From Sinohyriopsis cumingii (lineage: Eukaryota; Mollusca; Bivalvia; Unionida; Unionidae), in the NCBI GenBank assembly GCA_028554795.2, contig JAPYKE020000263.1, forward strand, positions 1,815,001 to 1,879,000: a stretch of 64,000 nt of DNA, read 5' to 3'. This document shows positions 22,400-49,401 of the stretch, piece by piece; positions within the stretch are counted from its first letter, which is position 1, and each line of letters starts with the position of its first letter. Under the pieces are notes generated by a model. That model made no database searches. It was not told the DNA's origin and saw only the letters and a program-made list of their open reading frames with translations. The position numbers were made by a program, and so were the translations under genes.

Positions 22400-22441
22400 A
22401 ACAGCCCTTTTCAGGGCTACCCAATACTCTAGAAAAGAAAT
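22400..22441 (+). terminator. Histone-type 3' stem-loop with purine downstream element
   Basis: Stem AGCCCT/AGGGCT (22403-22418), loop TTTC, 3' flank ACCCA. After 13 nt comes GAAAAGA (22432). A-rich 5' flank. Confidence 0.75.
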
Positions 22442-22721
22442 AACAATCGATTTGCCAATGTGTGTATGTAGAGTAGTGTGAATATAAACACTGACTCTTT
22501 TTTTATAGTGTGAGTGTATGCGTTTGTGTATAGGATTGTGTGTTTGTAAGTGCTCACGTACGTTTGTGTGGATAGTAGATTAAGATCATGTTTTTTTTTT
22601 GCTGTTTGAGGTGTGGGGAGAGTAGATTTGGGGATGGATTGGATCGTTTTGCGTATGTGCATAGGATATTATTTGTTTAATAAATTTTTTTAGAATAGTG
22701 ATGGGTAGTATAAAAAAGTGA
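22442..22721. repeat. Intergenic Polinton repeat units
   Basis: Diverged units with GTGTGGATAGTAGATT and CGTACGTTTGTG, the reverse complement of the units at 33100-33650. No coding signal. Confidence 0.6.
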
Positions 22722-22824
22722 GTGAGTGTTTCTTTTAGGTCCGCGCGTTGTTTTGTTATGATCTAGGTAAGGTCAATTTTGTTTTAGGGGATGTTTTCCA
22801 TTACGTCCGCGCTTTTAGTATAAA
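22722..22824 (+). promoter_or_regulatory. Paired upstream motif plus TATA box
   Basis: A weaker motif copy (22722-22746, ending AGGTCCGCGC), a conserved spacer containing GATCTAGGTAAGGTCAATTT, then a stronger copy (22787-22812) and TATAAA at 22819-22824. The TATA box is about 51 nt from the ATG at 22875. Both Polinton-2 pairs have the same layout. Confidence 0.7.
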
Positions 22825-22874
22825 TTGAAACTCGCTGGGCAGTCTAGCTACCCTGTTCATTCGTTGACAAGACA

Positions 22875-23171
22875 ATGAATACCAGAATTGTGAAACTGCT
22901 AGAACTCCAGATGCACCTGGAATATGCCAGGCGCATACTAAATGAACTGGCCGCGGAGGCCATTGTCGAAGAGGCAAGGATGAAAGAGGAGGAGGAAAGA
23001 AGAAAAAAAGAAGAGGAGGAAAAGGAGAGAGAAAATTTCAGAATCCCAGAGACAGAAAATTGGGATTCTGAAGCCACTTATCCCGCCTCTGCACTCCCAA
23101 GAAGAAAGGTAAAAGGAGACTGGGGAAGAAGATGTGTGTGTGGTGCCAGGCCTGGAAGGTGCCATCATTAA
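22875..23171 (+). CDS. Polinton accessory protein, Glu/Lys-rich coiled coil
   Basis: Protein of 98 residues: MNTRIVKLLELQMHLEYARR, a charged helical stretch of Glu/Lys/Arg, then NWDSEATYPASALPRRK and a Cys/Gly/His tail (CVCGARPGRCHH). Homologue at 34161-33784 has a longer charged repeat. It is followed after 29 nt by a histone-type stem-loop. Function unknown; the terminal Cys-His cluster could bind metal. Confidence 0.7.
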   Translation: MNTRIVKLLELQMHLEYARRILNELAAEAIVEEARMKEEEERRKKEEEEKERENFRIPETENWDSEATYPASALPRRKVKGDWGRRCVCGARPGRCHH

Positions 23172-23195
23172 CCAGGTGTCACTGGAGTTCAAAAA

Positions 23196-23241
23196 CAAAC
23201 AGCCCTTTTCAGGGCTACCCAAACCTTTAGAAAAGAAATAA
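23196..23241 (+). terminator. Histone-type 3' stem-loop with purine downstream element
   Basis: Stem AGCCCT/AGGGCT (23201-23216), loop TTTC, flank ACCCA, then GAAAAGA at 23230 after 13 nt. Confidence 0.75.
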
Positions 23242-23400
23242 CAATCAATTTGCCAATGTGTGTATGTAGAGTAGTGTGAATATAAACACTGACTCTTTTT
23301 TTATAGTGTTTGTGTTTGTGTTTGTAAGCGCTGATGTAGGTTGGTGTGGATAGTAGATTTGGGGTTTCATTTTAATGCTTTGCGTGTGTAAATAGTAGAT

Positions 23401-23612
23401 TGGCTTTCAGCATTAAGATATTAGTGTTAGTACTGGTCGGTCTGGTATCAGTATAATGGTATAATGTGACTGGGTGGGACATGAAACTACTTGTCTTCGG
23501 CATGATGCCCCATTGCTAGACATCACTCAAAACTGCCACACTGCAGACATCGTAGCTATATGACTGAACAGTTTTTAAAGCTTGGTTAAAAATCCAAATC
23601 ACACGGATACAC
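23401..23612 (+). mobile_element. SINE family A, 5'-truncated, abutting the Polinton-1 break
   Basis: Starts in the SINE body (CTTTCAGCATTAAG) and runs to the CA-rich tail. The tRNA-like head is missing. Polinton-like sequence stops directly before it. Confidence 0.8.
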
Positions 23613-32158: not shown

Positions 32159-32530
32159 AGTAGTAAATGGGGGCACCCTAGCGACAATGGGAATTAGCAT
32201 TACAAGACCCCTTGGGCAACTCTAGCGACAATGGAAAATTAACATGGAGAAAAATCGTGGGACAATCTGGCGACAAGGGAAATTAACATGGAGAAAAATC
32301 GTGGGTCACTCTAGCGACAAGGGGAATTTAACATGGAACTATAGTGTGGGTCTGTCTAGCGACAAGGGGAAATTAACATGGGAATAGAGTTTGGGTTTGT
32401 CTAGGGACAAGGGGAATTGAATATGGGATTTTTTTTAAAATTTAAATTTAAATTTAAAAAAGGGGTAGGCAATGGAAAGGCTATCTCTTTTCGAGAAATA
32501 TGGCTGGCCCTGAAAAGGGCCTTTGGGTTT
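32159..32530. repeat. Polinton-2 left TIR (372 bp)
   Basis: Inverted copy of 49022-49401. The outer part consists of about six tandem units with TAGCGACAAGGGGAATT cores. The inner part contains TTTAAATTTAAATTTAAA and a histone-type stem-loop. Confidence 0.95.
32480..32530 (-). terminator. Histone-type 3' stem-loop within the left TIR
   Basis: Minus strand: AAA, stem GGCCCT/AGGGCC (32521-32506), loop TTTC, flank AGCCA. After 13 nt comes GAAAAGA (32492-32486). It lies 25 nt after the stop of the adjacent accessory gene. Confidence 0.75.
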
Positions 32531-32546
32531 TCTTCTTCTTCTGCTT

Positions 32547-32936
32547 CTAATTTCTTCTTTTTCTCCACCAAGTTCTTATTTTATCTCCAACACTCTTTCT
32601 CTTCTTCTCTTTCTTTTTCTCCTGCTCTTCTTTCTTCTTCTTCTCTTCCTGCTCTTCTTTCTTCCTCTTCTCATTTTCTTCTTCTTTTTCAATCTTTTCG
32701 TTCCATTTGCTTATTCTTATTCTTTCCTCTTCATCCTCCTTCTCCTACTTTATCTCTTTCATGACACCACTAATCTTGTCCTTTACCTTTTTTAAGTTAT
32801 TAATTTCCATCTTTACACGATGGGGACTATAGGAATAATGGTCTTCAACCAGTCTTATTAACATCTGCTCCATCATGCCTAAGTTGTCTAAAACGTCTTG
32901 TAATGTTAGTATTTTGTCCATTTGGTTAGAAGCCAT
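32547..32936 (-). pseudogene. Polinton accessory coiled-coil protein with one in-frame TAG
   Basis: From the ATG at 32936: MASNQMDKILTLQDVLDNLG, a leucine-rich helical N-terminus, interrupted after 63 codons by TAG (32747-32745). The same frame then continues through a Glu/Lys/Arg-rich segment to a TAG at 32549-32547. Conservation of the frame beyond the stop suggests a recent nonsense change or readthrough. TATA-like AGTATAAG at 32995-32988 is about 52 nt upstream. The function is unknown. Confidence 0.6.
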
Positions 32937-32987
32937 CTTCTTTTTTTATTCTTTGCAGAATGGTTTGAACGACGAATACTATGGGTT

Positions 32988-33095
32988 CTTATACTTAAAG
33001 CGCGTACGTGAAGGAAAACATCCCCCTAAAACGTAAAATTGATCTTACCTAGATCATGACCAAACAACGCGCGAACGTGAAGGAAAACATCCCCC
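32988..33095 (-). promoter_or_regulatory. TATA box and paired upstream motifs
   Basis: Motif copies at 33026-33000 and 33095-33069 (GGGGGATGTTTTCCTTCACG then T(A/T)CGCGC), 69 nt apart, with the conserved spacer GATCTAGGTAAGATCAATTT, then AGTATAAG. Drives the gene starting at 32936. Confidence 0.7.
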
Positions 33096-33700
33096 TACTT
33101 TTTCATTTCATATAATAAAACCCAAACTATACTTTCTCATTTCGTATAATAAAAACCCAAACTATACTCTCCACATACGCTAAGAAACAATAAACAAAAT
33201 CCATAATCTACTATCCACACAATCTTACGTGAGCGCTTACAAAACCCAAACTATACTCATCACATACGCTAAGAACAATAAACAAATCCATAATCTACTA
33301 TTCACACAATCGTACGTGAGCGGGTACAAACACAAACACACAAACACAAACACACAAACACAAACACACAAACACATACGCTAAGAAACAATAAACAAAT
33401 CCATAATCTACTATCCACACAATCGTACGTGAGCGGTTACAAAACCCAAACTATACTCTCCACATACGCTAAGAACAATAAACTAATCCATAATCTACTA
33501 TCCACACAATCGTACGTGAGCGCTTACAGAACCCTAACTATACTCTTCACCTACGCTAAGAAATAATAAAGAAACCCATAATCTACTATTCCCACAAACA
33601 TACCTTAGCTCTTACAAGCACCAACACACAAACACATACCCTCACACTATCTTAAAAAAGAGTTAGTGTTTATAATCACACTACTCTACCTACACACATT
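33096..33700. repeat. Intergenic Polinton tandem repeats
   Basis: Five or six units of about 75-90 bp with ATAATCTACTATYCACACAA, TCGTACGTGAGCG and CACATACGCTAAGAA, plus a CAAACACA-rich stretch (33328-33373). Related to the 44/42-bp array of Polinton-1. Confidence 0.85.
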
Positions 33701-33715
33701 GGCAAATCGATCGTT

Positions 33716-33760
33716 ATTTCTTTTCTAGAGTATTGGGTAGCCCTGAAAAGGGCTGTTTTT
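33716..33760 (-). terminator. Histone-type 3' stem-loop
   Basis: Minus strand: stem AGCCCT/AGGGCT (33754-33739), loop TTTC, flank ACCCA, GAAAAGA (33725-33719) after 13 nt. 29 nt after the stop of the upstream gene. Confidence 0.75.
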
Positions 33761-33783
33761 TTTTGAACTTCATGGACACCTGG

Positions 33784-34161: not shown

Positions 34162-34213
34162 TTTTGGTGTTGATCAATCAACAAGGGTAGCTGGACTGCC
34201 GAACGAGTTTCAA

Positions 34214-34325
34214 TTTATAGTGAAAGCGCGGACGTGAAGGAAAACATCCCCTAAAAACATAAAATTGATCTTACCTACATCATGACCAAAAAACAACAAC
34301 GCGCGGACCTAAAAGAAACACTCAC
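34214..34325 (-). promoter_or_regulatory. TATA box and paired upstream motifs
   Basis: CTATAAATTG (34220-34211), strong motif at 34251-34226 (GGGGATGTTTTCCTTCACGT then CCGCGC) and a weaker copy at 34325-34301 (TTTCTTTTAGGTCCGCGC), 75 nt apart. Same order as in Polinton-1. Confidence 0.72.
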
Positions 34326-36764: not shown

Positions 36765-36780
36765 TTTTTTGTCTCTTTTC

Positions 36781-37198: not shown

Positions 37199-37201
37199 GA
37201 C

Positions 37202-38122
37202 TTAAGAGTCGTGAGAGAACCGTTTTCGAAAATGGAGTTTCACCGTGACTTTTCCTTTGGTGAATGGAATATTTTGTCCCAGATCTCCTTTTATAGCAAT
37301 GTTGACCGTGTCCAAATACGACTTACTGACCGGGAAATAGTGAGGACGGACAAATTCGCGGTGGACGTGGTAAGTGTTTCCACCTTCCTCGTCAGTGTTC
37401 GTGGCAGAATCCACTTTGAAAGGAATGACACGCAGTAACGGTACGGAGGTGTGTGCCACCACGTTGTACTCCACCACATCGGAATACACGAACATCAAAT
37501 TCAGTCCTTGGTTCAGTTCTACCGGGGCACGAAATAACTTGCTAAAAGACTCGTTGTCGTAAACGATGGGTAATTCGTTTTTCTTCATAATGGTCTTTCT
37601 CATGTCCATGTCTCTGCCCAACATGTCATACAATTCAGGACAAAATAAAATGGACAGGATTTTACTCCGTTCAAATTTCATCAAGAAGCGACGAGCTGTT
37701 TTGTGGTACTCCATGGTGACATTTTTGTTGACATGCTCCAAAGCTTTCAGAAACACATTAAACCTGGAGGTTATGGTGCTGACCAAATGTTGGCCACTAA
37801 AATAATAGCCTGGGGGAATGAACAAGTGATAGGTGGTGTACTTTTGTGTACGGGTTTTCTTGTCATATTTGACATTGCTATCCATCCACTGTTGCATTTG
37901 CTCGTCATGAACTTCCACATCAAAAAAATTTTGATTAGGAAGGACATTGAGGACTTGGGTCGGGTGAATCATTTCTACTAAAGCCACTTCCCAATGGGCT
38001 TCGTGATCTAACTGGATGGCCTGAGCTAATTTGGCCGTGTAACAGCACAACGTGTTCTTGGGAAACACCTCCATGGAACTGTCACTGGGTAAAGTTAAGT
38101 AAAATTGGTTTTGGTGACTCAT
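37202..38122 (-). CDS. Polinton minor capsid (penton-like) protein
   Basis: Intact 306-residue frame, homologous over its whole length to 15619-16548 (FYLTLPSDSSMEVFPKNTLC; HWEVALVEMIHPTQ). Predicted single-jelly-roll penton. Its ATG overlaps the stop of the preceding gene (ATGA), and its own stop lies 3 nt before the core gene ATG. Confidence 0.9.
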   Translation of the reverse strand: MSHQNQFYLTLPSDSSMEVFPKNTLCCYTAKLAQAIQLDHEAHWEVALVEMIHPTQVLNVLPNQNFFDVEVHDEQMQQWMDSNVKYDKKTRTQKYTTYHLFIPPGYYFSGQHLVSTITSRFNVFLKALEHVNKNVTMEYHKTARRFLMKFERSKILSILFCPELYDMLGRDMDMRKTIMKKNELPIVYDNESFSKLFRAPVELNQGLNLMFVYSDVVEYNVVAHTSVPLLRVIPFKVDSATNTDEEGGNTYHVHREFVRPHYFPVSKSYLDTVNIAIKGDLGQNIPFTKGKVTVKLHFRKRFSHDS

Positions 38123-38535
38123 AATTCCAGAGTTCTGTGGCTGTCCGAGGGGTTACTGGACGTCAGAGGCGTGTCTCCGTCTAAAATGGGGTTCTGGTTG
38201 TGATTGAAGTGGTGACTGGCACTGGCACTGGACACAAGGTTCCCGGGGTTCCCGTTCGAGGTGAATTTCAGGGAGGGATTAGGAAGCAGGTAACCGATGC
38301 AACTGCTCAATAAAATGGTCCACAATTGTTTGTCTCCTTGTTGCAAACTCACATTGGCGATGGCTGCCCCGATGACACAATACACCCCGAAGATTTGGCA
38401 GAAAAAGACGATTTGCGTTTTAGGCACACGTTCTCCACACCACACCCACAAGGGTTGTTTTTGTAAATCTTGCACAGAAGAACTAGGTGAAGGAGGAGTG
38501 GTCGACGTAGCTGCGTCTGCTGTGTGAAAGGGCAT
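38119..38535 (-). CDS. Small two-TM Polinton protein
   Basis: Protein of 138 residues from ATG 38535 (MPFHTADAAT). Two hydrophobic segments (IVFFCQIFGVYCVIGAAIA; LWTILLSSCIGYLLP) suggest a hairpin membrane protein with a Ser/Asn-rich tail. The ATG follows the integrase stop by 5 nt. Possible role in virion or membrane association, by position only. Confidence 0.7.
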   Translation of the reverse strand: MPFHTADAATSTTPPSPSSSVQDLQKQPLWVWCGERVPKTQIVFFCQIFGVYCVIGAAIANVSLQQGDKQLWTILLSSCIGYLLPNPSLKFTSNGNPGNLVSSASASHHFNHNQNPILDGDTPLTSSNPSDSHRTLEL

Positions 38536-38540
38536 GATGG

Positions 38541-39650
38541 TCACTTCTTTTTATAGTCGATGACTTGCGAAGCGTCGATCCAAGAATCAAAACTGGGTGG
38601 ATATCCTTTCCAACGTACTTTGACTTCTTTGACACGTCGTTTGCCCACTTTACGGGTTCTGCGTTCGAGAATGCTTTCGATGTCGTACACGTCGTCTTCT
38701 TTTTTGGTGACACGTTGTAACTCGGGCAAATAAAATGTTCCTTTGAGCACTTCTCCGTTCATGTCTTCCAATTTATAGACGGTAGGATGACGGCCATGCA
38801 CTCGTCCAGTGACGCGAAACAATTCGGTCGTCCAGTTAGGTAAGTAACCTTTGTCGAAAGTGCGTTTGGTTTTGCCAATACGCACCCAATCTCCGACGGC
38901 CAACTCTCCACTTTTCTTGGGGACAGCCCTCGTCGGGGACGTACCAAACAGGCGCTCAAACACCAACACTTCGTTGTCGGGAGTCACGTCTTGCGGGGCA
39001 CGTCCGATGCTTCGATGGTAAGATTGGTTGTACGCTTGCACCAGGTGCGGTAAGATGTCGATGTACTTCAGAGTGTGGTGATGCGTAAAATATTTCCACA
39101 TGCGTTCTTTCAAAGTGCGTTGAAAACGTTCCACGATGCTGGCTTTGGTTTCGGGATTCTCGGTGGTAAAAAAATGAATGTCACGTTTCTTTAATTCTTT
39201 TTGGAAAGCTTGGTTCAGAAATTCGGTGCCTTTGTCCGTTTGCCATCGAAGAGGGTGACGACCGCTTTGTTTCAACACCCGTTGCAGGGCTCGCACTAAC
39301 TCGCTGCTCGATTTGGAAGTCAAGGGCACGACCCAGGCAAATTTGGAAAAGACGTCGATGACACAAAACAAATATTTGTAGCCACGATTGCAGCTGGCCA
39401 AATGAGAGACATCGGCTACATCGGCTTGCCATTGATGATCGATGCCTTCCACTCGGGTGCGACTTCTGGCAAACTTGCGTCGAATGGGTTTGTGTAAAGT
39501 GTAGGTAGCTTGTTCTTGTAACCATCGTTGCACTTGAGGTAAACGGAGACTTTTCAGTCGAGTTTTGGCAGCACGATACAATTTTTGAACTCCTGCGTAA
39601 CCTGCAGGATGGGAGGGATCGTAGTAAATGCTGGCTAAGACTTTTTCCAT
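38541..39650 (-). CDS. Polinton integrase with C-terminal chromodomain
   Basis: Intact 369-residue protein from MEKVLASIYYDPSHPAGYAG. A retroviral-type DDE core is visible: first Asp in WQADVADVSHLA, second Asp in WQTDKGTEFLN, Glu in KASIVERFQRTLKER. Next comes a C-terminal domain (GDWVRIGKTKRTFDKGY) and a chromodomain (YDIESILERR; VRWKGYPPSFDSW). It inserts the element, and the chromodomain may guide it to methylated histones. The frame is open upstream without a better ATG; this start matches Polinton-1. Confidence 0.95.
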   Translation of the reverse strand: MEKVLASIYYDPSHPAGYAGVQKLYRAAKTRLKSLRLPQVQRWLQEQATYTLHKPIRRKFARSRTRVEGIDHQWQADVADVSHLASCNRGYKYLFCVIDVFSKFAWVVPLTSKSSSELVRALQRVLKQSGRHPLRWQTDKGTEFLNQAFQKELKKRDIHFFTTENPETKASIVERFQRTLKERMWKYFTHHHTLKYIDILPHLVQAYNQSYHRSIGRAPQDVTPDNEVLVFERLFGTSPTRAVPKKSGELAVGDWVRIGKTKRTFDKGYLPNWTTELFRVTGRVHGRHPTVYKLEDMNGEVLKGTFYLPELQRVTKKEDDVYDIESILERRTRKVGKRRVKEVKVRWKGYPPSFDSWIDASQVIDYKKK

Positions 39651-39672
39651 TTTTTTTGTGTTGGTTGGTGTG

Positions 39673-40311
39673 TTAATAAGACACCCACTCTTGGAGGATG
39701 CTACTCTTTTTCTCTTGGGGTATTTTCTTGGATTGCAATGCTTTGCGTGTGCGGCCAGCAATAGGTGTCGAAGAGGAGAAGGATGTCTGAGCGGGGGATA
39801 TCGGTTCTTGTTTCACTTCTGTCTTCACTTCTGTCTTCACTTTCTTTTTATCTTGTGAGGAAGAAGGGGTGGCCATCATCTTTTTAATCCATCCAATTCT
39901 GGAGGTAGGTGGTGTTGTTAACTTGCGTACTTTTTCTGGTGGAGTTTGAAACCCTTCCTCTTCTTCTCCTTTTTCTGTCTTGGTCACGGGTACTGGTGGT
40001 ACTGGTACTGGTACTGGTGATGGTGCTGGACTTTTCATCAAGGTCTTAAAATCTTTCAGAGTGGGTAGAGCTGTTTCGTCTAAAGCTTTCTGGTGAAAGA
40101 GTTGCAGTCGTTGCAAGAGTTGACCGTACTTTTGCGATTTTTCTGTTTCGGACAAATCTTGGCGATCCATCAAGGACTGCAATTCGTGTTGTAACTGGGA
40201 CATCTCGCTCAAATGGGGATTGGGAGGTAAATGCGGGGTGTGTTGTTCTTGCCACCGATGGTATTCCATCCATCGTTTGTAAGGCACTAAAGCTAGTTTT
40301 CGTCCTTCCAT
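39673..40311 (-). CDS. Polinton protein with N-terminal KLALVPYKRW motif
   Basis: Intact 212-residue frame, MEGRKLALVPYKRWMEYHRW. The conserved helical first half (LQHELQSLMDRQDLSETEKS, QLLQRLQLFHQKAL) is followed by a Pro/Lys/Ser-rich variable half. A GATAAAAA (40370-40363) lies about 52 nt upstream. It is conserved between PX-like and integrase genes in both copies; the family is known from Polintons, but I cannot assign a function. Confidence 0.75.
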   Translation of the reverse strand: MEGRKLALVPYKRWMEYHRWQEQHTPHLPPNPHLSEMSQLQHELQSLMDRQDLSETEKSQKYGQLLQRLQLFHQKALDETALPTLKDFKTLMKSPAPSPVPVPVPPVPVTKTEKGEEEEGFQTPPEKVRKLTTPPTSRIGWIKKMMATPSSSQDKKKVKTEVKTEVKQEPISPAQTSFSSSTPIAGRTRKALQSKKIPQEKKSSILQEWVSY

Positions 40312-40359
40312 GGGGTTGTCAGGGGTCGATTCTGAGATCTTGGAACTTCCGAGGCCTTT

Positions 40360-40746
40360 TTATCTTGCTCCCACCAGTCCTCCCAACATGGTTCCCAAGA
40401 CTCCTTTCAGTATGGGGCCTAACAAGAGAGGCAAAATACCTCCACGTTGCACTAACATCTTCTTTTTTTGACGAATGGGAATTTTCTTTTGAACCATTTG
40501 GGGAAGAACGTGACGATGTTTGCCTAAGCATTGTTTCTGGTGTTTGGACAAAGGGATCGTGCCTTTCAAAACGTTCAAACAACATTCGCACACGGTATCG
40601 ATGACCTCTTTGGAGGCTGTTTGAATGAGTTTTATTCATAGGGGTGGAGAAGCTTTGGACAGGACAGATAACATGTCCCCATGTTTGGCTAAACGTGGTG
40701 GCAGTCCTTTCCTTTTCTTTCCTTGGGGTTTTCTGGAGGGTGACAT
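40360..40746 (-). pseudogene. PX-like small basic protein with one in-frame TGA
   Basis: From ATG 40746 (MSPSRKPQGKKRKGLPPRLA), interrupted by TGA near 40640 where Polinton-1 has CGA. It then stays open to 40360: CECCLNVLKGTIPLSKHQK, MLVQRGGILPLLLGP and a Gly-rich hydrophobic end. TATAAAA (40809-40803) is about 57 nt upstream. Basic N-terminus plus hydrophobic tail resembles PX/core peptides packaged with viral DNA. Confidence 0.75.
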
Positions 40747-40804
40747 CTTTGAGTCTTCAGGAGCACCAAAAAACACTGATACCCGACTTGGTCACAGGCC
40801 GTTT

Positions 40805-41680
40805 TTATACTGGAACGCGTCGCCACTGATTGTCTTTACGTCGTATTAGTTTGAGGACAGGCATGACACGTCGTGCAGGGGTACGTAACGGACTAAATCG
40901 AGCCAGTTCTTGCTTGGACAAATCCAGTAAACTTTGTAACATGCCCGATCTTTCTTGAACTTTGATTTTGGGAGAAGGTACTTTGTGAGCAGCAGCCACT
41001 GCCACTAAATTGGAAGGTCCTGCCACTGGGGAAGTTCTTTTGGGGGTCATCAACGGAGAAGTTCTTGGTGTGATCAACGTCTCCAAGTACTCTTCAGTTC
41101 TGGGTGTCATTAACGGAGAAGTGGACAAACGTGAAGCTGCCGGAGACGCAGTCACCGCCGTGGCAGGTCGTGGTTTGCGAGTGTAAGGTTGCGTCCTGGC
41201 CGAAGTGCCTCTCTTGCGACTAGTTTTCTGTGGACTTTTCTTTTTCTGGGGGCTTCTTTTCTTTTTCCGGGGTGGTGGTGGTGTCTGGTCAGAGGAGGGT
41301 CCTGCCACTGGAGAAGTTCTCCTTGGGGACCTGGTCTTTTTCTTCTTGGGGCTTCGTTGGACTTTTGTCTTGGGTATAACTTTGGGGGCATTAGGATCCC
41401 ATCTTAAGAGTGAGCGAATGATGACCCCTCCTAGAGTACCGCTCCCTCCAGGTTTCAAAATGATTTGTTTTTTGGTTTGAGTGTCGATGCGGGGATCGGC
41501 CAGTTGGACCAAAGCGACTTTGTTTCGATCAAAAAAGCGTTTGGTTTGATGAGGAATCTGAATGATTCCTTGGAGTAATTGACGTGCCGTCACCGTGAAC
41601 CATCGTAAGACTTCTTTGAGACTAGCTTCTAAGACACGAGCTCGTGTTTGTGGATTTTTTTCTCGACTGATGCCATACAA
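40805..41680 (-). CDS. Basic Polinton protein A
   Basis: Open frame of about 290 codons. The first half is helical (LKEVLRWFTVTARQLLQGII, RFFDRNKVALVQLADPR), then GGSGTLGGVIIRSLL. The second half is Lys/Arg/Pro/Ser-rich with repeats (TSPVAGPS, TPRTSPLMTP), suiting a nucleic-acid-binding virion protein. No ATG opens it: the frame continues upstream, without a stop, to about 41840 inside the ATPase gene, so the true start is undefined. Its N-terminal pattern resembles that of the PX-like gene next to it, suggesting paralogy. Confidence 0.6.
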   Translation of the reverse strand: MYGISREKNPQTRARVLEASLKEVLRWFTVTARQLLQGIIQIPHQTKRFFDRNKVALVQLADPRIDTQTKKQIILKPGGSGTLGGVIIRSLLRWDPNAPKVIPKTKVQRSPKKKKTRSPRRTSPVAGPSSDQTPPPPRKKKRSPQKKKSPQKTSRKRGTSARTQPYTRKPRPATAVTASPAASRLSTSPLMTPRTEEYLETLITPRTSPLMTPKRTSPVAGPSNLVAVAAAHKVPSPKIKVQERSGMLQSLLDLSKQELARFSPLRTPARRVMPVLKLIRRKDNQWRRVPV

Positions 41681-41777
41681 GGCAGAATCAATTTGACGGG
41701 AAGATGCGACTGAAGGGACGTCATGTTCGCACTGTGTGAGACAGACGAAAAAGGGTCTGAGATTTTTATAGATTTTT

Positions 41778-42521
41778 TTATGGGGAGTGAAATGAAGTCG
41801 AGGACGGAGACGTGTACAGGACAGGCCCTCCGTCTTGGCACCAGTGGTGAAACAAGTGGGTACGAAATCGCAAATCCTCAGGAGTCGTAGGTTTCAAATC
41901 GACGAGTAAATAGGCGTGTGGCGTTTGAGTGGCATCGTCGTACGCCTGAGTCAGCCAAGGCGTTCCTAACTGTTTGGCTAAGACTTGCACTTGCGATTTA
42001 TCTCGAGGGCTTTTAAACAAGACCACGTAATGCGCATTGAGACTGATGGTGCGATGGGCTTTACTTTGTTGAAACAAATTTTGGGTGATGTAAACGACAC
42101 TGGCATTACGGTGATGCCCTTTGCGCGTGAACCACAGTTTAATTTCTTCTTCGTCTTCTCCTAACATGTCGTCGAAAATGACCAAATGGGTTTGACGGGA
42201 GTCAGAGACGATGCCGTCGTCTTCTTTAGGAATGCCTTCCACAAACACGATGGAATCGCCTTGACTTTCTCGCAAGAGGCTGTACGCCGATTGCCACTCT
42301 TTGTAACACCACACGATCTGTTGAGGGGGTCGATCGATCAAATGATGTTTATGTTCGATCAAACGTTTGACGAATTCAGTTTTGCCAGAACCGCTAGGTC
42401 CAGCAATGAGCATGTTAAAGGGATGGCGAAGATACAAAGCCTCCCAACTGGCACGATCTCAGTGTTCGTCGATGACTTTGACAGTAGAGGAAGAGGAAGC
42501 AGAGACAGTAGAGGTAGCCAT
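41778..42521 (-). pseudogene. Polinton packaging ATPase (A32/FtsK-like) with one early TGA
   Basis: From ATG 42521 (MATSTVSAS), interrupted by TGA at 42461-42459 after 20 codons, then open for about 227 codons. Walker A is GPSGSGKTEF, Walker B is HLVIFDDMLGED, and YITQNLFQQ lies at the sensor position. This family drives genome packaging in Polintons, adenovirus-like and NCLDV lineages. TATATAAA (42577-42570) is about 50 nt upstream of the ATG. Initiation downstream of the stop could still yield the ATPase domain. Confidence 0.88.
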
Positions 42522-42619
42522 GGTGTGAGGAATGTCACTTGTGACACGAAAAAACAAACAAGACAAGAGTTTATATACTTTTTCAGAACACGTTTATTGA
42601 ATGTTTTTTTCAAACATGA

Positions 42620-43019
42620 TTACGAAAGACAAAAATACATAAAAGCCAAAGGCTTAAGTACAAGAATAAAAGGCACATGAACGTGGAATAAAAAACAAGT
42701 GTCTGTACAACAACCACATGTTTTGGGTAAAGTTCTAACCAGTTCTATTGTAGGGGGTAAGGTCACACAAGTGTCCTCCCGAAAGGGTCTTTCAGGCCTG
42801 TCCACGACAGTCCTGTCCTGGGTGACGGGTTCTTCTGGCACCGTCACTAACACAGGTTGAAAAGTAACTTTTATCCTTGAACAACTCTCGTGCATACTGG
42901 GCCACCTCTTGTGTCCAAGCCTCAAAACCCTGGTCTCGGTGATGTCCAACATTTGACTCCTATCCAATCTGGTTTCTTCTTCGTCAACGACATGGTAAGT
43001 TACTTCAATGAACAATGAA
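42620..43019 (-). other. Unassigned coding-like segment between polymerase and ATPase
   Basis: The longest frame (43015-42620) lacks an ATG at its start and ends with a Cys-rich hydrophobic stretch (TCGCCTDTCFLF). An alternative frame starts at an ATG near 42993 (MSLTKKKPDWIGVKCW), and a third reads GFEAWTQEVAQYARELFKD. This pattern suits a frameshifted small gene. TATAAAA (about 43042-43036) lies at the polymerase end. No family recognised. Confidence 0.35.
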
Positions 43020-46000
43020 CTATTGGTCTTGGACGTTGTCCCTTTTTATATGCTGACCAATATCGATGTGGCCGTACGGCAACGTAAAGTGATTGGGAAG
43101 TCTCACTCGCTTCTGGTACACGATTTGATAGATTTTTTCCAGGGGCCGACTGACGATGTGGTGAGTGGGTAAACGTACAATCTTGTTCGGTTGATAAGTG
43201 GTCACTTCAAAGTTTCCATCCTCTCCCGATTGCAAGGCTTCTTTCAATACCCCAAAGTTGACCACTCGACTGGTACGATGATTCAGAGTCAGTCCTTTCA
43301 CTTTGCACGTCGTGTGCACTTCTCCTTGTTTGTCCCGGTATTCGTAGCCGTAATTTTTGGGACCACCACTGACGAAACTTAGAATCTTGTCGTCGGGATG
43401 CTCGTCTGTCCAGGCTCCTAAACGGTCTCCTTCGATGTCAGGGTGCTGTTGACTCGGGTGATGGATGTAAATGCAACTGTCCGTGTCAAAGTACAGGACG
43501 CGTTCTTCTAACTGTTCTAAAGCTTCGTACAATTTTAAGCGAGCATGAGCTGTCACGTAAGCCGCAATGATGACATTTCCAAAAGGGTCGTCTTGTACAA
43601 AGTCCAGATCTTCTTCGTAATTGACCAAGATCAAATCCTCTCGAACGACGTCCACGTGTTTCATGTATTTGGTTTTGTCCTGAATCATCTGGAAGTAGCG
43701 GGAAGGTTCTGTCAAATATTCCGTCTTGGGTAAACACGGTCGTTGTGCCATTTAACCCCACAAGCAATTTAACATCACTTTGGCAAACGATCGCCTGCCT
43801 TCGTTTTTTTCGATGTGGTCTAAAGAGATGCCTTCTTGTGCGTAGTATTTCTCTTTGAATTGTATTTGGTCTTCGGGAGTGTGACACCAGGAAGGATAGC
43901 CGCTGGCTTCTTGTTTCAGTTTCAAAAAGGCATCCACGTAGTCGGCGAAAATGCCTTTCTGAGTAGGGTCACCCTTGTGGTACTGTTGTGTCTTGGGAAA
44001 GTGGCAAATTTCGTACACTTCTAACAGTTGGTATCCCATGTCCAGAGCTTTGAACAATTCCACGCTGACCCAGGTTCCCGTCAAGGCACGTTCTTCCTGG
44101 CTGTGATGGCAAGGTTGGTCCTGGTTGCACGTTTCGGCACAAGTACGGCACAAGGGAAACATCAGTTTGCCTTGACAATGGTGAGGTAAGACGGGATGGT
44201 ATAGGTTCGTGGGAGGCAAAACTTTACACTTGATCAAGCCTTCGTATTGTCGAATGTTTTTCAGGTCGATGTGTTCCGTGAACAATTGCGGGTGCCCTAC
44301 AGGAAAGCGACAATATTTGCACACGTAGGGATACTGCGAACACACGTCCAAGTATTTGATTTCTTCTCCTTTCTCTTCGTCGGCTTGGTACAGCAAACAG
44401 GTGGCATTGGTCCTTCCTCCGTACAAACTATCCCTCGGGTTCAGCGGGTCCATGAACTGGTAACTTTCCACGAGGCGTTTAAACTCGGGATCGGTTTTCA
44501 AACGGTGATCGTACTCGTGTTCCCACATTTCCACCACTTGGTATCCTTGCTGTTCTAACTTTAGGCGTCGTTGACAAGTGTCCTGGTACAAGTCTTCCAT
44601 GGTTCGTTGCAAAAACTGATTTTTAGTGTCACGGTCAGGGTAACAGATGGGACATCCGTGAAATAAGCAACCGTTAAACTCGTACACGATCTTGGGGTTT
44701 TCTAAGTCCCAGCCATCTACCGAATACGTTCCGATGGTCTTTTCGCCTCCTCCGTTGCGGGCATGCTGAATCCATTTGTCTTCCTTGTCGCACAAGTAAT
44801 GTAACCAACGTAGGGCTTTGACCGAGTATTGACGCTTGACATAGTGGGTCGTTTGAGGACTGATGACAGCCACGGTGTTTTCAGGCATGAATCGTTGGCG
44901 GTACACTAAGGAACACGCTTTGGCAATGGTGCAAGCTTCTTTCAAAGGATCGACCCCTCCGTGTTCCATGAACAGTTCTCGAAATTTTCCACAGCAACGT
45001 CGTAAAATGTCCACGTCGGAACGACAATACTTTAACATTTCTTCCTGAAAGTCGAAGGGGTCAGAGGCATGAGCCTGGTACCAAGCGTAGAAAGCTTCTC
45101 GTTGTTCGGTACGCATGTTGTCGGGGTCGTAATAGTGAGCCTCAGGTAAATGGGGTAGAACGGCATGTTGATTGGCTTCCATATTGAAAAAGTGTGGAAA
45201 GTACCCTTTAGCCATTTCTGTCATTCCAAACGTTTTAGGCATTCGACTCAAAGGCATGGCCAAGTAACTCATCGAATCTTTAAACTGTACTTGTCCCACT
45301 TGCATGAAAATGATTTTGGCTCCGTTCAAAGTCACTTTAGGACGCTCGGTGCCTTGTTCCGTATAGTACCTCAAAAGAAACTGTCCATCGTATCCGGAGA
45401 AATTGTGAGCCATCACCGTGGCATGACGATGACAATCTCCGTAACGTTCGATGTCCTCTTTGCTCCATGTCTTGTCGATGGGGTCTAAGACCCATTGGGC
45501 AAAATCGGCTAACGTGTTTGGTCCTCGAAAGATTTTTTCACGTCCTCCAGGAATCTTGCTGCAGTGAGGGCAATGACTGAAGATAGGTTCTTGAATGCAC
45601 TTCTCGCACGCTCGATGAGCCACGCAGAAATTAGGAATGTGAATGCCGGTCTCTTGCATGCATTCGAAATCGAAAAAGATGAAATTGCCTTTCTTCTTGT
45701 GACCGTCCTCTTCCTCTGGTGGGGGTTGGTATTTTTGCACGTAACATTCGTGTTCCAAGTCCACGATGTGGTGACAAATGTGACATTTTTTCTTTCCTCG
45801 ACATACGTGTGCCTTGGTACTATTGGTACGTATGCCTTGTCCACACGTAGGGCACAATCTCAGGAGTTGACAAGCACATTTCTTCTGTGAACCTTGTGTT
45901 TTCAAATGTTGCTGGTAACAGGTAGGGCTGACAAACGTGCGCAGACAAGTTGAACAAGGCACTGGTTCTTCGCTCAGACAGGGTGGAGAGGCCAAACATC

Positions 46001-47084
46001 CTGGGCATTTCCATCCACAAGACTTGTGTTGCTCTCGATTGTTATAACCATAATCACATTTCTCACAATAATAACTGTATCCCAGGAATCCAGTGATACT
46101 GGTAATGGTATCGAAATGTTCATCGTGATAATAGACATGAATGTATTTTCCGTCCTTAAAATCTTGGCCTCGAAACAACTGAGTTCCACGCATTTCTTGA
46201 GGGTGCACTTTCAAGGTGTAGCGTGGAGCTAGGGCATCTTGCAATTTTTGCATCTCAGGAACGCCACAAGGTGTGTCTTTGGACAGTCCGGCTTGTTGTA
46301 ACAGGAGTTCTGCTTCATTTCGTTGTTTGGCTCGGTCGGATTGTTGAATAGTGTTCCAGGTTCTTTTCCATTCTACCGTGTCGTTCTTGTTGGCATAGGT
46401 TCGTCCCACCTCGATGGCACGGGCTAAACACATCTGGTCTTGAGGGTTGTGAATTCGGACGAGACTTGTTTTGGTGTTGCGAAGGTTGTCCACCAATAAC
46501 ATCTTTTTGCGTCCTGTCCCTTGAGGAAGAGAGACGTGGGCCATTTTCAGTGTGGCTTTACCATCGGTGATGTCAAACTGGTCATTAGATTGTTGTACGT
46601 GTTGAATCTTGTCCATGATTTTGGAAGGGGTTAGTTCTGCGGGTCTGCTAAACTCGATCCAAACAGGGGATTTCAAACTGTCGTGATCTATGGATAGTGT
46701 CAAGCGATCGTCTTCTTTGGGTTGACATTGTCGCTTGAGTGCGGTGAGCAAAGAATCCCACATCTCGGTGATAAACCCTTCTGCTTTCTCCAAGGGTACG
46801 TCGGCCTTGAAATCTTTAAACTTCACCGTGTAGGTGTAAGCCGTGGTTCTAAATTTTCTAGAGGAGCGCTTTTCCGTCTCTCGAATGGAATAGTACTTTT
46901 CAGGGTTGACTAAGGGTGGTGAACTTGGTTTAGAGAGTTCGGATTCTGGTTCACTCATGTCCTCTTCAAAATCACTGGCATGAATTTGTGCCAAGATTTC
47001 AGCCCTGGTACGAGGCGATAGATCACGTTTCTGCCTCTTACTTTCTTCTTCTTCTTTCTTCTCGAATGAATAGGATCGTTTCAT
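43020..47084 (-). pseudogene. Protein-primed family B DNA polymerase with one in-frame TAA
   Basis: About 1354 codons from MKRSYSFEKKEEEE. An N-terminal region (QMCLARAIEVGRTYANK) and a Cys-rich zinc block come first. Next are exonuclease motifs Exo I (FFDFECMQETG), Exo II (AHNFSGYDGQF) and Exo III (YCRSDVDIL), then palm motifs A (LDVCSQYPYV), B (KVMLNCLWG) and C (YFDTDSCIY). A TAA (43754-43752) directly after motif B separates the frame from motif C, so the 1110-residue product would lack a catalytic Asp. No frameshift is seen. It replicates the element from its ends in the family model. Confidence 0.93.
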
Positions 47085-47217
47085 CTTGAGTGCAAAACGT
47101 CAAATGACTCAAGTTCAAACACCATAGACTAATTTATAGTCATGGCAAACCAGCGTATATAAAAAGGGTGTGTCTTGTCCTTTCACTATTCATTTCACTC
47201 TCAAACCGAGGAGAACA
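47085..47217. promoter_or_regulatory. Divergent promoter between polymerase and CCHC gene
   Basis: CTATAAATTA on the minus strand (47139-47130) lies about 50 nt from the polymerase ATG. TATATAAAAA on the plus strand (47156-47165) lies 53 nt from the CCHC ATG. Confidence 0.7.
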
Positions 47218-47702
47218 ATGGAAGAGACTAGCCAAATCGAACGTTTCGTCAGAGCTTTGCGAGGGGTCATTAGAAAATTCTCTTCAGACCAGCCGACAGA
47301 CTACTCTCCTTCCTTTCGAGATAAGAGTTCGGATACTTGCTATATCTGTCAGAAGAAAGGGCATTGGTCTTCAGAGTGTCCAGACCGTCAAAAAAGAAAA
47401 AAAAAACAGGGGCTAAAAAAGACAAAAGTCAAGATACCTGTTATTATTGTAAAGAAAAAGGACATTGGTCTCCAGATTGCCCAAAAAAGAAACAAGAGGA
47501 GTCAGAAGAAAAGAAGGATTCTTCAGAAGAAGAGAGGGATTCTTCGGAAGAAGAGAGGGATTCTTCGAAAGAAGAGAGGGATTCTTCAGAGGAAGAAAGA
47601 AGACAATTATATTTAAAAGAAGCAAATAAACAGGAGAAGAAAAGAAGAAGGGAAGAAAATGAGGAAAAAACGGTGAAGAAATTCAAAAAACAGAGAGACT
47701 AA
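47218..47702 (+). pseudogene. CCHC zinc-knuckle protein, frame split at an A10 run
   Basis: From ATG 47218 (MEETSQIERFVRALRG) with one zinc knuckle CYICQKKGHWSSEC. At the A10 tract (47397-47406) the second knuckle (CYYCKEKGHWSPDC) and the Ser/Glu repeat tail (DSSEEER repeated four times) continue in the -1 frame to 47702. Each knuckle is C-x2-C-x4-H-x4-C, as in gag-type nucleic-acid binders. The split could be a homopolymer indel, programmed -1 frameshifting or transcriptional slippage. Confidence 0.7.
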
Positions 47703-47921
47703 ACAAGGAGAAAGAAGAAGTCAATGAACTTTTAATTAAAGTGTTGTGCTGTGAATTGGATTGTAAAAAATGGATAAAAGAATACATGAATGATATAAGG
47801 TAAGTGTCTTTGAGTTTTGATTTTAAAATAAGAAGCTACACTCACGCACTCATACACAGACACGTACTATAAGGGTAAAATGGGTGGGGTTTATTTTTGA
47901 GTTATTGGCAAATTGAAATTG
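47703..47921. other. Intergenic between CCHC gene and accessory gene
   Basis: 3' flank of the CCHC gene. No stem-loop on the plus strand and no clear AATAAA seen. Confidence 0.4.
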
Positions 47922-47968
47922 TATTTCTTTTCGAGAAATGTGGGTGGCCCTGAAAAGGGCCTTTTTAT
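47922..47968 (-). terminator. Histone-type 3' stem-loop, closest to consensus
   Basis: Minus strand: A-rich flank AAA, stem GGCCCT/AGGGCC (47961-47946), loop TTTC, flank ACCCA. After 13 nt comes GAAAAGA (47932-47926). 25 nt after the stop at 47987. The core and both flanks match the metazoan histone mRNA consensus. Confidence 0.8.
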
Positions 47969-47986
47969 CTTGGTGTAGGGGTGAGT

Positions 47987-48547
47987 TTAACCAATCAACT
48001 TTAACTGCCTTAAGCCTTTGCCACGGCCAAGGCCTACTTCTGATGATTGGGTTGAAATCACTAAGGGTGGTACGATAGGCTTAGTCACAGGGTTGGCGTG
48101 TTTAGCTCGGGAAGGTCGTATTCTCTTCGGTCGTGATAAAGAAGTCTGATACATTTGTTTCAGACTTCTTAACTCCGCTAAAATGTCCAACAGTACCGTG
48201 ACCGTTTGATTTTCACCCTCTTGTTTCTTTGCTGCTACTTCTTCTTGCTGTTGTTGCTGTTGTTTTTTCCTTACCTCTTCTTGTTGCTGTTGCTGTTGCT
48301 GTAGGAGAAAAGCTTGTTCCGCTTCCTTTTGTCGTTGCATAAATTTCTCCAATTCTTCTTTCTGTCTCTGTCTAAAATTCTCCACTTGCGGTAATGAAGA
48401 ACGTAACGAAGGTTCCGGAACAAATTCTTGCGAGGTAAGAAAATCCACAAAATCCCAATGTACCTCTTCTGAAAGTAAGTCCGGGTTCCCTTGGGCAGTC
48501 TCCCCTGCTGGTGCACCCCAATGTATCGTTTTCTGAGTTTCCGTCAT
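47987..48547 (-). CDS. Polinton accessory protein, Gln-rich coiled coil
   Basis: Intact 186-residue frame MTETQKTIHWGAPAGETAQG. An N-terminal acidic/aromatic region (EEVHWDFVDFLTSQEF) is followed by a long helical Gln/Glu/Lys region with two poly-Gln runs and a second helix (VTVLLDILAELRSLKQMYQT). The C-terminal part is basic (RPKRIRPSRAKHANP). TATATAG (48599-48593) lies about 47 nt upstream. Followed by a histone-type stem-loop. No family recognised; composition suggests a multimerising nucleic-acid or chromatin factor. Confidence 0.7.
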   Translation of the reverse strand: MTETQKTIHWGAPAGETAQGNPDLLSEEVHWDFVDFLTSQEFVPEPSLRSSLPQVENFRQRQKEELEKFMQRQKEAEQAFLLQQQQQQQEEVRKKQQQQQQEEVAAKKQEGENQTVTVLLDILAELRSLKQMYQTSLSRPKRIRPSRAKHANPVTKPIVPPLVISTQSSEVGLGRGKGLRQLKLIG

Positions 48548-48766
48548 GTTGAATCACTGTCGCATAGATTGACTGCACACAAGCGCTAACGAATCTATAT
48601 AGACCACGTGACGTCACAGACTGCTCTCTTCGGATTGGATGCGAGCTGACTGAATTTTGTAACGCGTGTTCGTATTGGTGAATGAATTCAATCCGTTTCA
48701 ATCCTTCCTGTACCTATAAATAAGCGCAGTTCACTGCATTGATTCACCTATTCTCGTCGCTTCAAG
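48548..48766. promoter_or_regulatory. Divergent promoter with TATA, CRE/E-box and CCAAT boxes
   Basis: CACGTGACGTCA (about 48606-48617) joins an E-box and a CRE. Inverted CCAAT boxes (ATTGG) occur near 48635 and 48674. TATA boxes face both ways (48593-48599 minus; TATAAA 48715-48720 plus). Each TATA lies 46-53 nt from its ATG. Confidence 0.7.
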
Positions 48767-49006
48767 ATGTGGACCACAGTTGAGTCATCTACCCTTGTGT
48801 CTTCCATGATGTTTAGGACGGACATGCTCATGTATGTCAGGTCCAAGTGGACTGTTGTTGATAGGACAGATACTAGTCAATGGATGATGAGAGTTTACAT
48901 AGAAAGACAAGGATGTCTCAAGAGGGTACTTGTGTATGGACCGGCAGTTAGAAGGAGTTTAAGAAGAAGAAGAAGAAGAAGATGTGACAGATGGCATCTA
49001 TGTTAA
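48767..49006 (+). CDS. Polinton terminal accessory protein, Arg tail
   Basis: 79-residue frame, MWTTVESSTLVSSMMFRTDM, with an Arg-rich stretch (RRSLRRRRRRRC) near the end. It reads toward the right TIR, opposite to most genes of the element. A TATA box lies 47 nt upstream and a histone-type stem-loop 24 nt downstream. The small size leaves some doubt, but both flanking signals support a gene. Function unknown. Confidence 0.6.
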   Translation: MWTTVESSTLVSSMMFRTDMLMYVRSKWTVVDRTDTSQWMMRVYIERQGCLKRVLVYGPAVRRSLRRRRRRRCDRWHLC

Positions 49007-49021
49007 TATTAATATTAACAT

Positions 49022-49401
49022 AAACCCAAAGGCCCTTTTCAGGGCCAGCCATATTTCTCGAAAAGAGATTGCCTTTCCATTGCCTACCCCTTTTTTTAAA
49101 TTTAAATTTAAATTTAAATTTAAAAAAAAAATCCCATATTCAATTCCCCTTGTCCCTAGACAAACCCAAACTCTATTCCCATGTTAATTTCCCCTTGTCG
49201 CTAGACAGACCCACACTATAGTTCCATGTTAAATTCCCCTTGTCGCTAGAGTGACCCACGATTTTTCTCCATGTTAATTTCCCTTGACGCTAATCTGACC
49301 CACGATTTTTCTCCATGCTAATTTTCTCTTGACGCTAGAGTTGCCCAAGGGGTCTTGTAATGCTAATTCCCCTTGACGCTAGGGTGCCCCCATTTACTAC
49401 T
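49022..49401. repeat. Polinton-2 right TIR (380 bp)
   Basis: Inverted copy of 32159-32530, including the stem-loop, the TTTAAATTTAAA tract and the tandem TAGCGACAAGG units. Confidence 0.95.
49025..49070 (+). terminator. Histone-type 3' stem-loop within the right TIR
   Basis: AAA, stem GGCCCT/AGGGCC (49031-49046), loop TTTC, flank AGCCA, then GAAAAGA (49060-49066) after 13 nt. Confidence 0.75.

Follow-up and report, generated by a model that had tools for sequence, protein, structure and literature searches.

Histone-type 3′ ends on five accessory genes, and a histone promoter motif on three of them, in a Polinton family of Sinohyriopsis cumingii

A Polinton family of Sinohyriopsis cumingii very probably (rough probability 0.88) presents its accessory genes A–E as host replication-dependent histone genes and would have them expressed via the host histone programme. 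At the level of sequence, the features seen are stem-loops, a 13-nt spacing, likeness to host histone 3′ ends and complementarity to a candidate U7 snRNA, together with a shared promoter motif, a histone downstream element (HDE) that is kept while the neighbouring spacer is not, and tens of thousands of modules. The initial annotation had assigned a histone-type 3′ end with a U7-pairing element to Polinton accessory genes; this is supported by the covariance model, the host histone genes, the candidate U7, the footprint and the fixed spacing; pairing with human or Drosophila U7 and the search for the host SLBP domain added nothing in its favour. It was incomplete, as three genes (A, B and C) also have the host histone promoter motif. 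No earlier report of Polinton genes with 3′ ends or promoters of histone type emerged from literature searches, and in both features the family is unlike the Polintons of the literature searched.

Results

Polinton elements

The window, i.e., the whole stretch analysed, comprised 64,000 nt of contig JAPYKE020000263.1 (1,815,001–1,879,000); all coordinates are window-based. Element 2 (32159–49401) measures about 17.2 kb, has its core genes on the minus strand and was recognised by its terminal inverted repeats (TIRs) and Polinton genes; left TIR 32159–32530, right TIR 49022–49401, aligned over 381 bp at 94.8%. No 5–8-mer shared by its two ends was found as a target-site duplication; a dispersed repeat starts 4 bp past its right end. 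Genes of element 2, all on the minus strand: DNA polymerase B (PolB), 43020–47084, two open pieces split by an in-frame stop (PF03175, E 1.3e-37 on 43752–47084), without a histone-type 3′ end; RVE integrase, 38541–39761, aligned to the element-1 copy at 14233–15216, which matched rve (PF00665, E 9.4e-15) and chromo (PF00385, E 9.8e-8); packaging ATPase (A32 type), 41778–42437 (PF04665, E 7.7e-8, over the cut-off; FtsK-like PF01580, E 1.7e-4, just under it).

Element 1 (10200–23325, plus strand) is related and degraded; it was recognised by its alignment to element 2 and by terminal tandem repeats (10200–10688). Its part 12146–23325 aligned piecewise to element 2, the long pieces at 86–95%, and the alignment did not reach that end of element 2 where PolB, D and E lie. 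An adenovirus-type protease match on 21110–21700 (PF00770, E 0.019) was below the cut-off. Both elements contain broken genes. Major capsid protein and penton gave no Pfam match in the scanned window genes; the genes that we take to be of capsid type (double jelly-roll major capsid protein, penton) were named from gene order, and the penton-like protein had 41 homologues among metagenome proteins. With PolB, RVE integrase plus chromodomain, A32-type ATPase, TIRs and a length of about 17 kb, the family resembles Polintons/Mavericks (polintoviruses; related to adintoviruses), for which defining features are listed in an excerpt of PMC4028283.

Accessory genes

Five genes per element (A–E) have histone-type 3′ ends, and their coding sequences differ from one another: A1, 22017–22376 (+), MCSKL..., charged, polyQ, and A2, 34662–35018 (−), dN/dS 0.30 between the two; B1, 22875–23171 (+), MNTR..., Glu/Lys-rich, and B2, 33784–34161 (−), dN/dS 0.20; C2, 32547–32936 (−), MASNQ..., with an in-frame stop inside it here and a first part that other copies conserve; D2, 47987–48547 (−), 186 aa, with a conserved basic block PKRxRPSRAK and 20 homologues among metagenome proteins; E2, 48767–49006 (+), 79 aa, divergent from D2, with 19 matches in the fetched loci, from which it differs mostly at codon position 3. 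No introns are visible in the open reading frames. The Pfam scan found no histone domain in A1, B1, A2, B2, D2 and E2, nor in the first 63 residues of C2; as a control, host H3, H2B, H2A and H1 passed the histone-domain cut-off and H4 (PF00125) fell below it.

Stem-loops and downstream elements

Seven exact hairpins (6-bp stem, TTTC loop, GCCC..GGGC stems) were found where the initial annotation had placed them: A1, 22403–22418 (+); B1, 23201–23216 (+); A2, 34617–34632 (−); B2, 33739–33754 (−); C2, 32506–32521 (−); D2, 47946–47961 (−); E2, 49031–49046 (+). Counted from the 5′ end, those on the minus strand are 34632−, 33754−, 32521− and 47961−; those on the plus strand are 22403+, 23201+ and 49031+. 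The stem-loops of C2 and E2 lie inside the left and right TIR of element 2, respectively, and face outwards. All seven matched the Rfam Histone3 model (RF00032) with E 9.6e-9 to 3.6e-4, scores that are not chance; three exceeded the gathering score (34 bits). An eighth TTTC hairpin in the window, at 57559+, is without the flank and without the purine block.

The 5′ flank is A-rich; the 3′ flank is ACCCA in five hairpins and AGCCA in C2 and E2, as had been annotated. The purine block begins exactly 13 nt past the stem in 7/7, again as first described. HDE GAAAAGA: A1, 22432–22438 (+); B1, 23230–23236 (+); B2, 33719–33725 (−); C2, 32486–32492 (−); D2, 47926–47932 (−); E2, 49060–49066 (+); HDE GAAAATA: A2, 34597–34603 (−). 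A second block that pairs with the candidate U7, TTTGCCAA, follows at 22451–22458 (A1, +), 23249–23256 (B1, +) and 47905–47912 (D2, −). The stem variants AGCCCT/AGGGCT and GGCCCT/AGGGCC, earlier read as compensatory change, are real; they differ at one pair between two copy classes and thus amount to a single covarying pair.

A gap of 24–29 nt between stop and stem had been given for every gene and holds for six (A1 26, B1 29, A2 29, B2 29, D2 25, E2 24 nt); at C2, the frame with the internal in-frame stop has its final stop at 32547–32549, 25 nt ahead of the stem, and the ATG-started frame ends 54 nt ahead of it. AATAAA occurs 64 nt past the A2 stem and 50 nt past the D2 stem, and in A2 the changed HDE creates one more; a polyadenylated fallback is therefore possible.

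Host histone genes and candidate U7

Tandem histone genes of the host were found in the same assembly. The 3′ ends of H3, H4 and H2B read GGCCCTTTT(T/C)AGGGCC, followed by GAAAAGA at 13 nt, i.e., the same block as in the Polinton genes; H2A and H1 have stem-loops of their own and a similar purine block at 14 nt; host stop-to-stem gap, 27–38 nt. A candidate host U7 snRNA, predicted from the HDE and an Sm site, matched once in 2.9 Gb, and the reversed control gave no match. RF00066 does not recognise the candidate, and at −6.3 kcal/mol the hairpin at its 3′ end is weak. A search of the assembly at E 1e-3 did not find the host SLBP RNA-binding domain; the controls were silent as well, and introns are suspected of splitting the domain.

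Predicted pairing with the candidate U7: seven Polinton 3′ ends, −22.0 to −30.5 kcal/mol; five host histone ends, −16.5 to −28.7 kcal/mol; A1 and B2 (−30.5 kcal/mol) pair more strongly than any of the five host genes. For all 12 ends, 0–1/500 shuffles paired as well, a test that is partly circular because 11 U7 bases had been the search key. With the 27 bases outside the key, shuffles as good numbered 1–6/1000 for A1, B1, A2, B2 and D2; 33/1000 (C2) and 41/1000 (E2), which is marginal; 39 (H2A), 84 (H4) and 86 (H1) per 1000, which is modest; host H3 (317/1000) and H2B (889/1000) showed no pairing above shuffles with these bases. Among further Polinton copies, 51/55 had ≤5/100 shuffles as good, and the distal block TTGCC[AT], which pairs with the candidate U7, is kept in 54/55. 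Human or Drosophila U7 paired unremarkably with the Polinton 3′ ends (47–326/500 shuffles as good).

Promoter motif

A 29-nt motif is common to A1, B1, A2, B2, C2 and host H1, H2B, H2A (reverse) and H4 (0/100 shuffles at each of the four host genes); the motif scan did not find it at D2, E2 and host H3. With the B2 copy as reference (34223–34251, −, TATA box next), the matches are: A1, 21925–21953 (+), 27/29; B1, 22787–22815 (+), 27/29, TATA box next; A2, 35081–35109 (−), 29/29; C2, 32997–33025 (−), 28/29, TATA-like box next, and a further copy upstream at 33066–33094 (−), 27/29. H4-type variants lie upstream of B1 (22721–22749, +) and of B2 (34298–34326, −; 25/29 to the host H4 promoter). The distance from motif to ATG is 88–92 nt in the Polinton genes and 88–110 nt in host H4, H2B and H1.

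Genome-wide, the motif gave 33,289 matches (reversed control, 0). An exact stem-loop plus HDE lay 250–900 bp downstream on the same strand for 41/63 matches on C1 and in none of 63 in the opposite-strand control; the other 22/63 had no exact stem-loop plus HDE downstream. One motif array proved, unplanned, to be tandem H2B-like genes.

Occurrence and conservation

The stem-loop with the block at 13 nt had 48,688 exact matches genome-wide versus 300 at 15–23 nt. The feature is not confined to the window elements: it is present in many other element copies of the same genome and behind the stop of one metagenome protein (P0054, read past its stop). The 30 Histone3 loci fetched as the best of 75 scored all adjoin Polinton gene B or D, which is a warning for annotation.

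Mean pairwise difference across 14 copies of gene B was 0.020 for the HDE versus 0.236 for the 8-nt spacer before it; for genes B, D and E, the HDE differed by 0–0.020 and the adjacent spacer by 0.15–0.236 per site, the footprint being limited to stem-loops that had not themselves brought their locus in.

Discussion

Like animal replication-dependent histone genes, A–E combine a stem of 6 bp and a loop of 4 nt with an A-rich 5′ flank, an HDE 13–14 nt downstream that is complementary to the candidate U7, a short stop-to-stem gap and a lack of visible introns, and A–C share the promoter motif as well; they differ in having no histone domain in the sequences scanned (for C2, the first 63 residues), in their place within a dispersed virus-like element, and in a second block that fits the candidate U7 better than host histone ends do. 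As a mechanism it is proposed that host SLBP would bind the Polinton stem-loop and that U7 snRNP would cleave 4–5 nt after it, the position given in an excerpt of PMC7026596. The resulting mRNAs would be without poly(A), would build up in S phase and would be degraded once it ends. In this way the element would time the products of A–E to DNA-replicating cells, and its own polymerase could exploit those conditions.

Every copy descends from active masters, and the 3′ regions of A and B are near-duplicate over about 130 bp, so identity alone is no proof of function. A histone 3′ end gained by recombination and spread by copying alone, functionless, would fit both facts. Such passive capture is disfavoured and quite improbable in view of the HDE-to-spacer difference in B, D and E, the retention of the distal block, and the presence of the module on five genes with unlike coding sequences. 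The 48,688 exact modules and the strong pairing of A1 and B2 relative to host histones could also be taken to mean that tens of thousands of RNA stem-loops titrate SLBP or U7 snRNP, disturbing histone supply and favouring replication of the element; it is unlikely that they serve as a sponge of this kind, which needs no coding genes, since the modules stand directly behind genes under purifying constraint, though titration may occur as a side effect.

The position of C2 and E2 inside the TIRs might suggest a role in the DNA itself (TIR recognition, replication or integration) with an accidental histone likeness; this is disfavoured to the point of being barely credible, because the A, B and D hairpins are internal, 7/7 are gene-oriented and 24–29 nt behind a stop, and there is no DNA-level reason for an HDE and complementarity to the U7 tail. 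Transfer might also have run in the opposite direction, host histone genes receiving the motif or the 3′ module from the element. This is highly improbable, as histone stem-loops occur throughout metazoans and the vertebrate H4 promoter also has the GTTTTC-N6-GTCCG layout. Most likely the signals were acquired from host histone genes or evolved into imitations of them.

The preferred reading remains expression of A–E through the histone programme. A bolder version, for which the odds are somewhat below even, is that the Polinton lineage made its gene cassette pseudo-histone at both ends, with A and B 3′ ends that pair with most of the host U7 5′ arm, tighter than host histones do; the cassette would run on the S-phase/histone-locus machinery and, with tens of thousands of modules, may burden the supply of SLBP and U7 and compel host U7 and the HDEs of histone genes to evolve together.

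Viruses with histone genes are known (bracovirus H4, Marseillevirus histones); they likewise use histone biology but borrow the protein, whereas the Polinton has expression signals only. To our knowledge, replication-dependent histone mRNAs are the only metazoan mRNAs with a stem-loop in place of poly(A). A virus-like element appears to join this class with five non-histone genes, the promoter being copied for three. In this family the SLBP/U7 pathway would have natural users other than histones, and the coupling of Polintons to the cell cycle of the host could be addressed directly; in a genome with so many exact modules, an arms race over U7 and SLBP is likely.

Elements and their surroundings

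The window holds two related Polintons. Element 2 (32159-49401, minus strand) has inverted terminal repeats, PolB, integrase and packaging ATPase; element 1 (about 10200-23325, plus strand) is a degraded relative, to which the polymerase end of element 2 remained unaligned. Broken genes occur in both, e.g., an in-frame stop in PolB of element 2. The capsid-type genes of element 2 gave no Pfam match, and their names, presumptive, were taken from gene order; a target-site duplication of element 2 was not found, and the tRNA scan gave no match. Five accessory genes end in a stem-loop: E and D, in divergent orientation, at one element end, and A, B and C at the opposite end (the digit in A1, A2, etc. 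denotes the element; stem-loops are named after their genes). The C and E stem-loops lie inside the terminal repeats and face outward.

Tandem repeats of about 44 bp are located within the terminal repeats (32159-32428, 49132-49401 and 10200-10688). The segment 18694-20380 of element 1 contains two ORFs with neither a Pfam match nor alignment to element 2, and looks like a later insertion. A reverse transcriptase ORF at 57643-58770 (PF00078, E 3.8e-18) probably belongs to a non-LTR element; a tandem repeat with a 26-bp unit (3389-3680) overlaps ORFs.

Stem-loops of the accessory genes

A script listing all exact 6-bp/TTTC hairpins returned eight in the window, seven with a GCCC..GGGC stem; the same seven carry the A(C/G)CCA flank and, exactly 13 nt downstream, the purine block (histone downstream element, HDE), as the initial annotation had described. 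Its assignment to histone-type 3' ends was borne out by the Rfam model Histone3 (RF00032), which matched all seven (E 9.6e-9 to 3.6e-4; three above the curated score). The hairpin was formed in the predicted fold of the 60-nt stretch in 7/7 cases, with equally good folds in 0-5 of 200 shuffles; the C2, D2 and E2 folds show an additional small hairpin around the HDE. With E values allowed up to 5, the window gave no further Histone3 match, thus no core gene ends in a histone-type stem-loop. AATAAA occurs 64 nt downstream of stem-loop A2 (34547-34552, minus strand) and 50 nt downstream of D2 (47890-47895, minus strand), and host H4 likewise has such hexamers; a poly(A) fallback is therefore possible.

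Host histone genes

The host assembly (2.9 Gb) contains the histone quintet in tandem (about 8.3 kb). In the unit fetched (L063), H3, H4 and H2B end in GGCCCTTTT(T/C)AGGGCC followed by GAAAAGA at 13 nt, and the stem-loops of H2A and H1 are followed at 14 nt by GAAAAGG and GAAAAGA, respectively, so that the purine block of the Polintons has its counterpart in all five host genes; Rfam scores of these stem-loops were 35.0-39.4 bits. H3, H2B, H2A and H1 were above the Pfam cut-off; H4 was named from its sequence, its PF00125 match being under the cut-off. The 3' end of host H2B (stem GGCCCTTTTCAGGGCC, spacer ending in CTCTA, GAAAAGA) shares with Polinton genes A and B the loop, the last five spacer bases and the HDE. 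Host H2A (L063:4036) and Polinton gene D (window 47961-) show extra similarity past the HDE, CAATTTTGCCA vs CAATTTGCCA, which hints at the donor gene. The search for host SLBP (PF15247) gave no match in the host assembly at E 1e-3.

Promoter motif

Genes A, B and C each have a 29-base motif (at 34251-, GGGGATGTTTTCCTTCACGTCCGCGCTTT). A TATA-type box follows it closely at B and C, a place taken at A by TTTAAG; a second copy of the motif lies upstream at B and C. The motif was found before host H1 (24/29), H2B (23/29) and H2A (21/29, reverse), and a second Polinton version agrees with host H4 in 25/29 positions; none of 100 shuffles reached the host values, and the motif is absent at host H3. 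Measured from its start, the motif lies 88-110 nt before the ATG in host H4, H2B and H1, and 88-92 nt before it in A1, B1, A2, B2 and C2. The motif is missing from D2, E2 and the five core genes examined; in E2, a TATA box and a TATTC start resemble those of some host histone genes. The motif resembles the HINFP-type H4 element; a literature search for the letters of the HINFP motif was without result. HiNF-P binds H4 promoters, according to PMC5706932.

A separate tandem array (1851 bp; L085, G000:C1:5075700-5077700 of the host assembly), reached unplanned via the motif search, holds H2B-like genes, so named from likeness to host H2B; it has the same promoter motif (seven copies among the matches listed), the stem-loop and the block at 14 nt.

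Candidate host U7 snRNA

Human and Drosophila U7 (sequences from PMC7026596) gave no significant pairing with the purine block (47-326 of 500 shuffles as good) and were replaced by a host candidate. The U7 core that the host HDE (TCTAGAAAAGA) predicts, with a U7-type Sm site behind it, served as a genome search pattern: one match was obtained (reversed pattern, 0; chance expectation about 0.04 by simple base counting). The locus (L065:1501) reads ...ACACCAATTGGCAACTTGAATAGGCTCTTTTCTAGAGATTTGTCTAG...; the predicted 5' arm would contain UUGGCAAC...CUCUUUUCUAGA. Its pairing beats shuffles in 7/7 Polinton and 5/5 host 3' ends (0-1/500 each), but use of the core as search key makes this result partly circular. 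When restricted to the 27 bases that lie upstream of this core, pairing was still significant for A1, B1, A2, B2 and D2 (1-6 of 1000 shuffles as good) and marginal for C2 (33/1000) and E2 (41/1000); in the host it was marginal for H2A (39), H4 (84) and H1 (86 per 1000) and not significant for H3 (317/1000) and H2B (889/1000). Among 55 other copies, 51 had at most 5/100 shuffles as good, and 54 contain a third conserved block, TTGCC[AT], which is conserved because it pairs with UUGGCAA of the candidate. Against the candidate count its weak 3' hairpin and the RF00066 search, which found no U7 and did not recognise L065:1501.

Conservation of the 3' module

Thirty genome loci were fetched, the best 30 of 75 matches scored; since they were picked by Histone3 score, only their other stem-loops and those of the window are a fair sample. 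Gene classes A-E of the copies were assigned by our own pattern rules. Mean pairwise differences for gene B (14 copies) were: upstream 0.137, stem-loop 0.054, next five bases 0.029, 8-base spacer 0.236, HDE 0.020, downstream 0.107; gene D (13 copies): 0.034, 0.047, 0.059, 0.207, 0 and 0.118; gene E (5 copies): 0.231, 0, 0.080, 0.150, 0 and 0.213, respectively; A and C had two such copies each. The low values of the stem-loop and the next five bases are partly built in, both being in the finding rule; the contrast of HDE and spacer is not. In gene D, though, the upstream stretch also varies little (0.034), which argues against a simple contrast with the flanks.

Accessory genes

The frames of A and B are intact between elements 1 and 2, with dN/dS of 0.30 and 0.20 (integrase 0.45, penton-like gene 0.61, one small gene 0.30). 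In the fetched loci, pairwise differences fell mainly on the third codon position; the counts at positions 1/2/3 were 1614/624/3871 for gene E (19 matches, two with an in-frame stop) and 103/69/307 for gene C (8 matches, one with a stop). Longer forms of gene C seem to exist: loci L074, L070, L071 and L082 have a differing start region, also behind a histone-type promoter, with a 198 aa open frame in L074. All Pfam matches of A, B and D were under the cut-off (best, MAP7 on B2, 20.8 bits vs 28.5); E2 and C2 (first 63 residues) had none at E up to 0.1.

In viral_contigs, the searches for relatives of the penton-like protein and gene D were negative, as was that of genome_contigs for gene D; comparison with relatives beyond this genome is therefore limited to metagenome proteins. 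Gene D, with 20 homologues there, carries a conserved basic block, PKRxRPSRAK, which looks like a nuclear localisation signal. One homologue, P0054, extends beyond its own stop: the tail, ...QWPISGPPTSLEKRYY, corresponds to stem-loop and HDE translated in register, some 28 nt past the point where its relatives stop (hand count). Related elements thus carry the feature too: it occurs in many other copies in this genome and in this one metagenome protein. The stem-loop DNA pattern matched two viral_contigs, in both inside a phage-type polymerase gene and with no Histone3 match at gathering score; these were rejected.

Genome-wide occurrence

The promoter pattern GTTTTCNNTNACGTCCGCGC occurs 33,289 times in the genome and GCCCTTTTCAGGGC-N15-AAAAGA (13-nt spacing) 48,688 times, each with 0 for the reversed control; the other spacings counted, 15-23 nt, together gave 300 as an off-spacing control. 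These counts may include host histone genes. Divided by five genes, the 48,688 modules suggest about ten thousand copies of one Polinton family in the 2.9-Gb genome, which would be a very large Polinton load. Among the first 100 stem-loops on sequence C1 of the assembly, 18 pairs are divergent at a distance of 1087-1125 bp, as D and E are, and one pair closer than 1.5 kb is convergent. Of 63 promoter matches from this stretch, 41 are followed at 250-900 bp, on their own strand, by an exact stem-loop with HDE, and none by one on the opposite strand; 25 have one upstream on their own strand, as expected of genes in tandem. In 19 downstream stretches of 720 bp (19 of the first 20 matches listed, the second of one doublet being skipped) the script found a stem-loop in 13, with the block at +13 in 11 and at +14 in two; the covariance model matched 10/19 at E up to 0.01. 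The remaining six, read by eye, comprise one stem-loop cut by the stretch end, two that look damaged and three genes that overrun the end.

Proposed mechanism

The initial annotation knew of no such description for Polintons; likewise, the literature matches listed, mostly open-access and seen in part (including PMC4028283 and PMC11071213), contained no report of a Polinton or adintovirus with a histone stem-loop, SLBP or histone gene, nor of histone stem-loops in viruses or transposons. The component parts are of known kinds; their union is, to our knowledge, new. Beyond the signals observed here, we infer the RNA and protein steps from the known pathway (PMC5706932 and PMC7026596). A-C would be started by host factors as histone genes are; Pol II would transcribe the short gene, SLBP and the U7 snRNP would process its 3' end, and the resulting mRNA would live and die with S phase.
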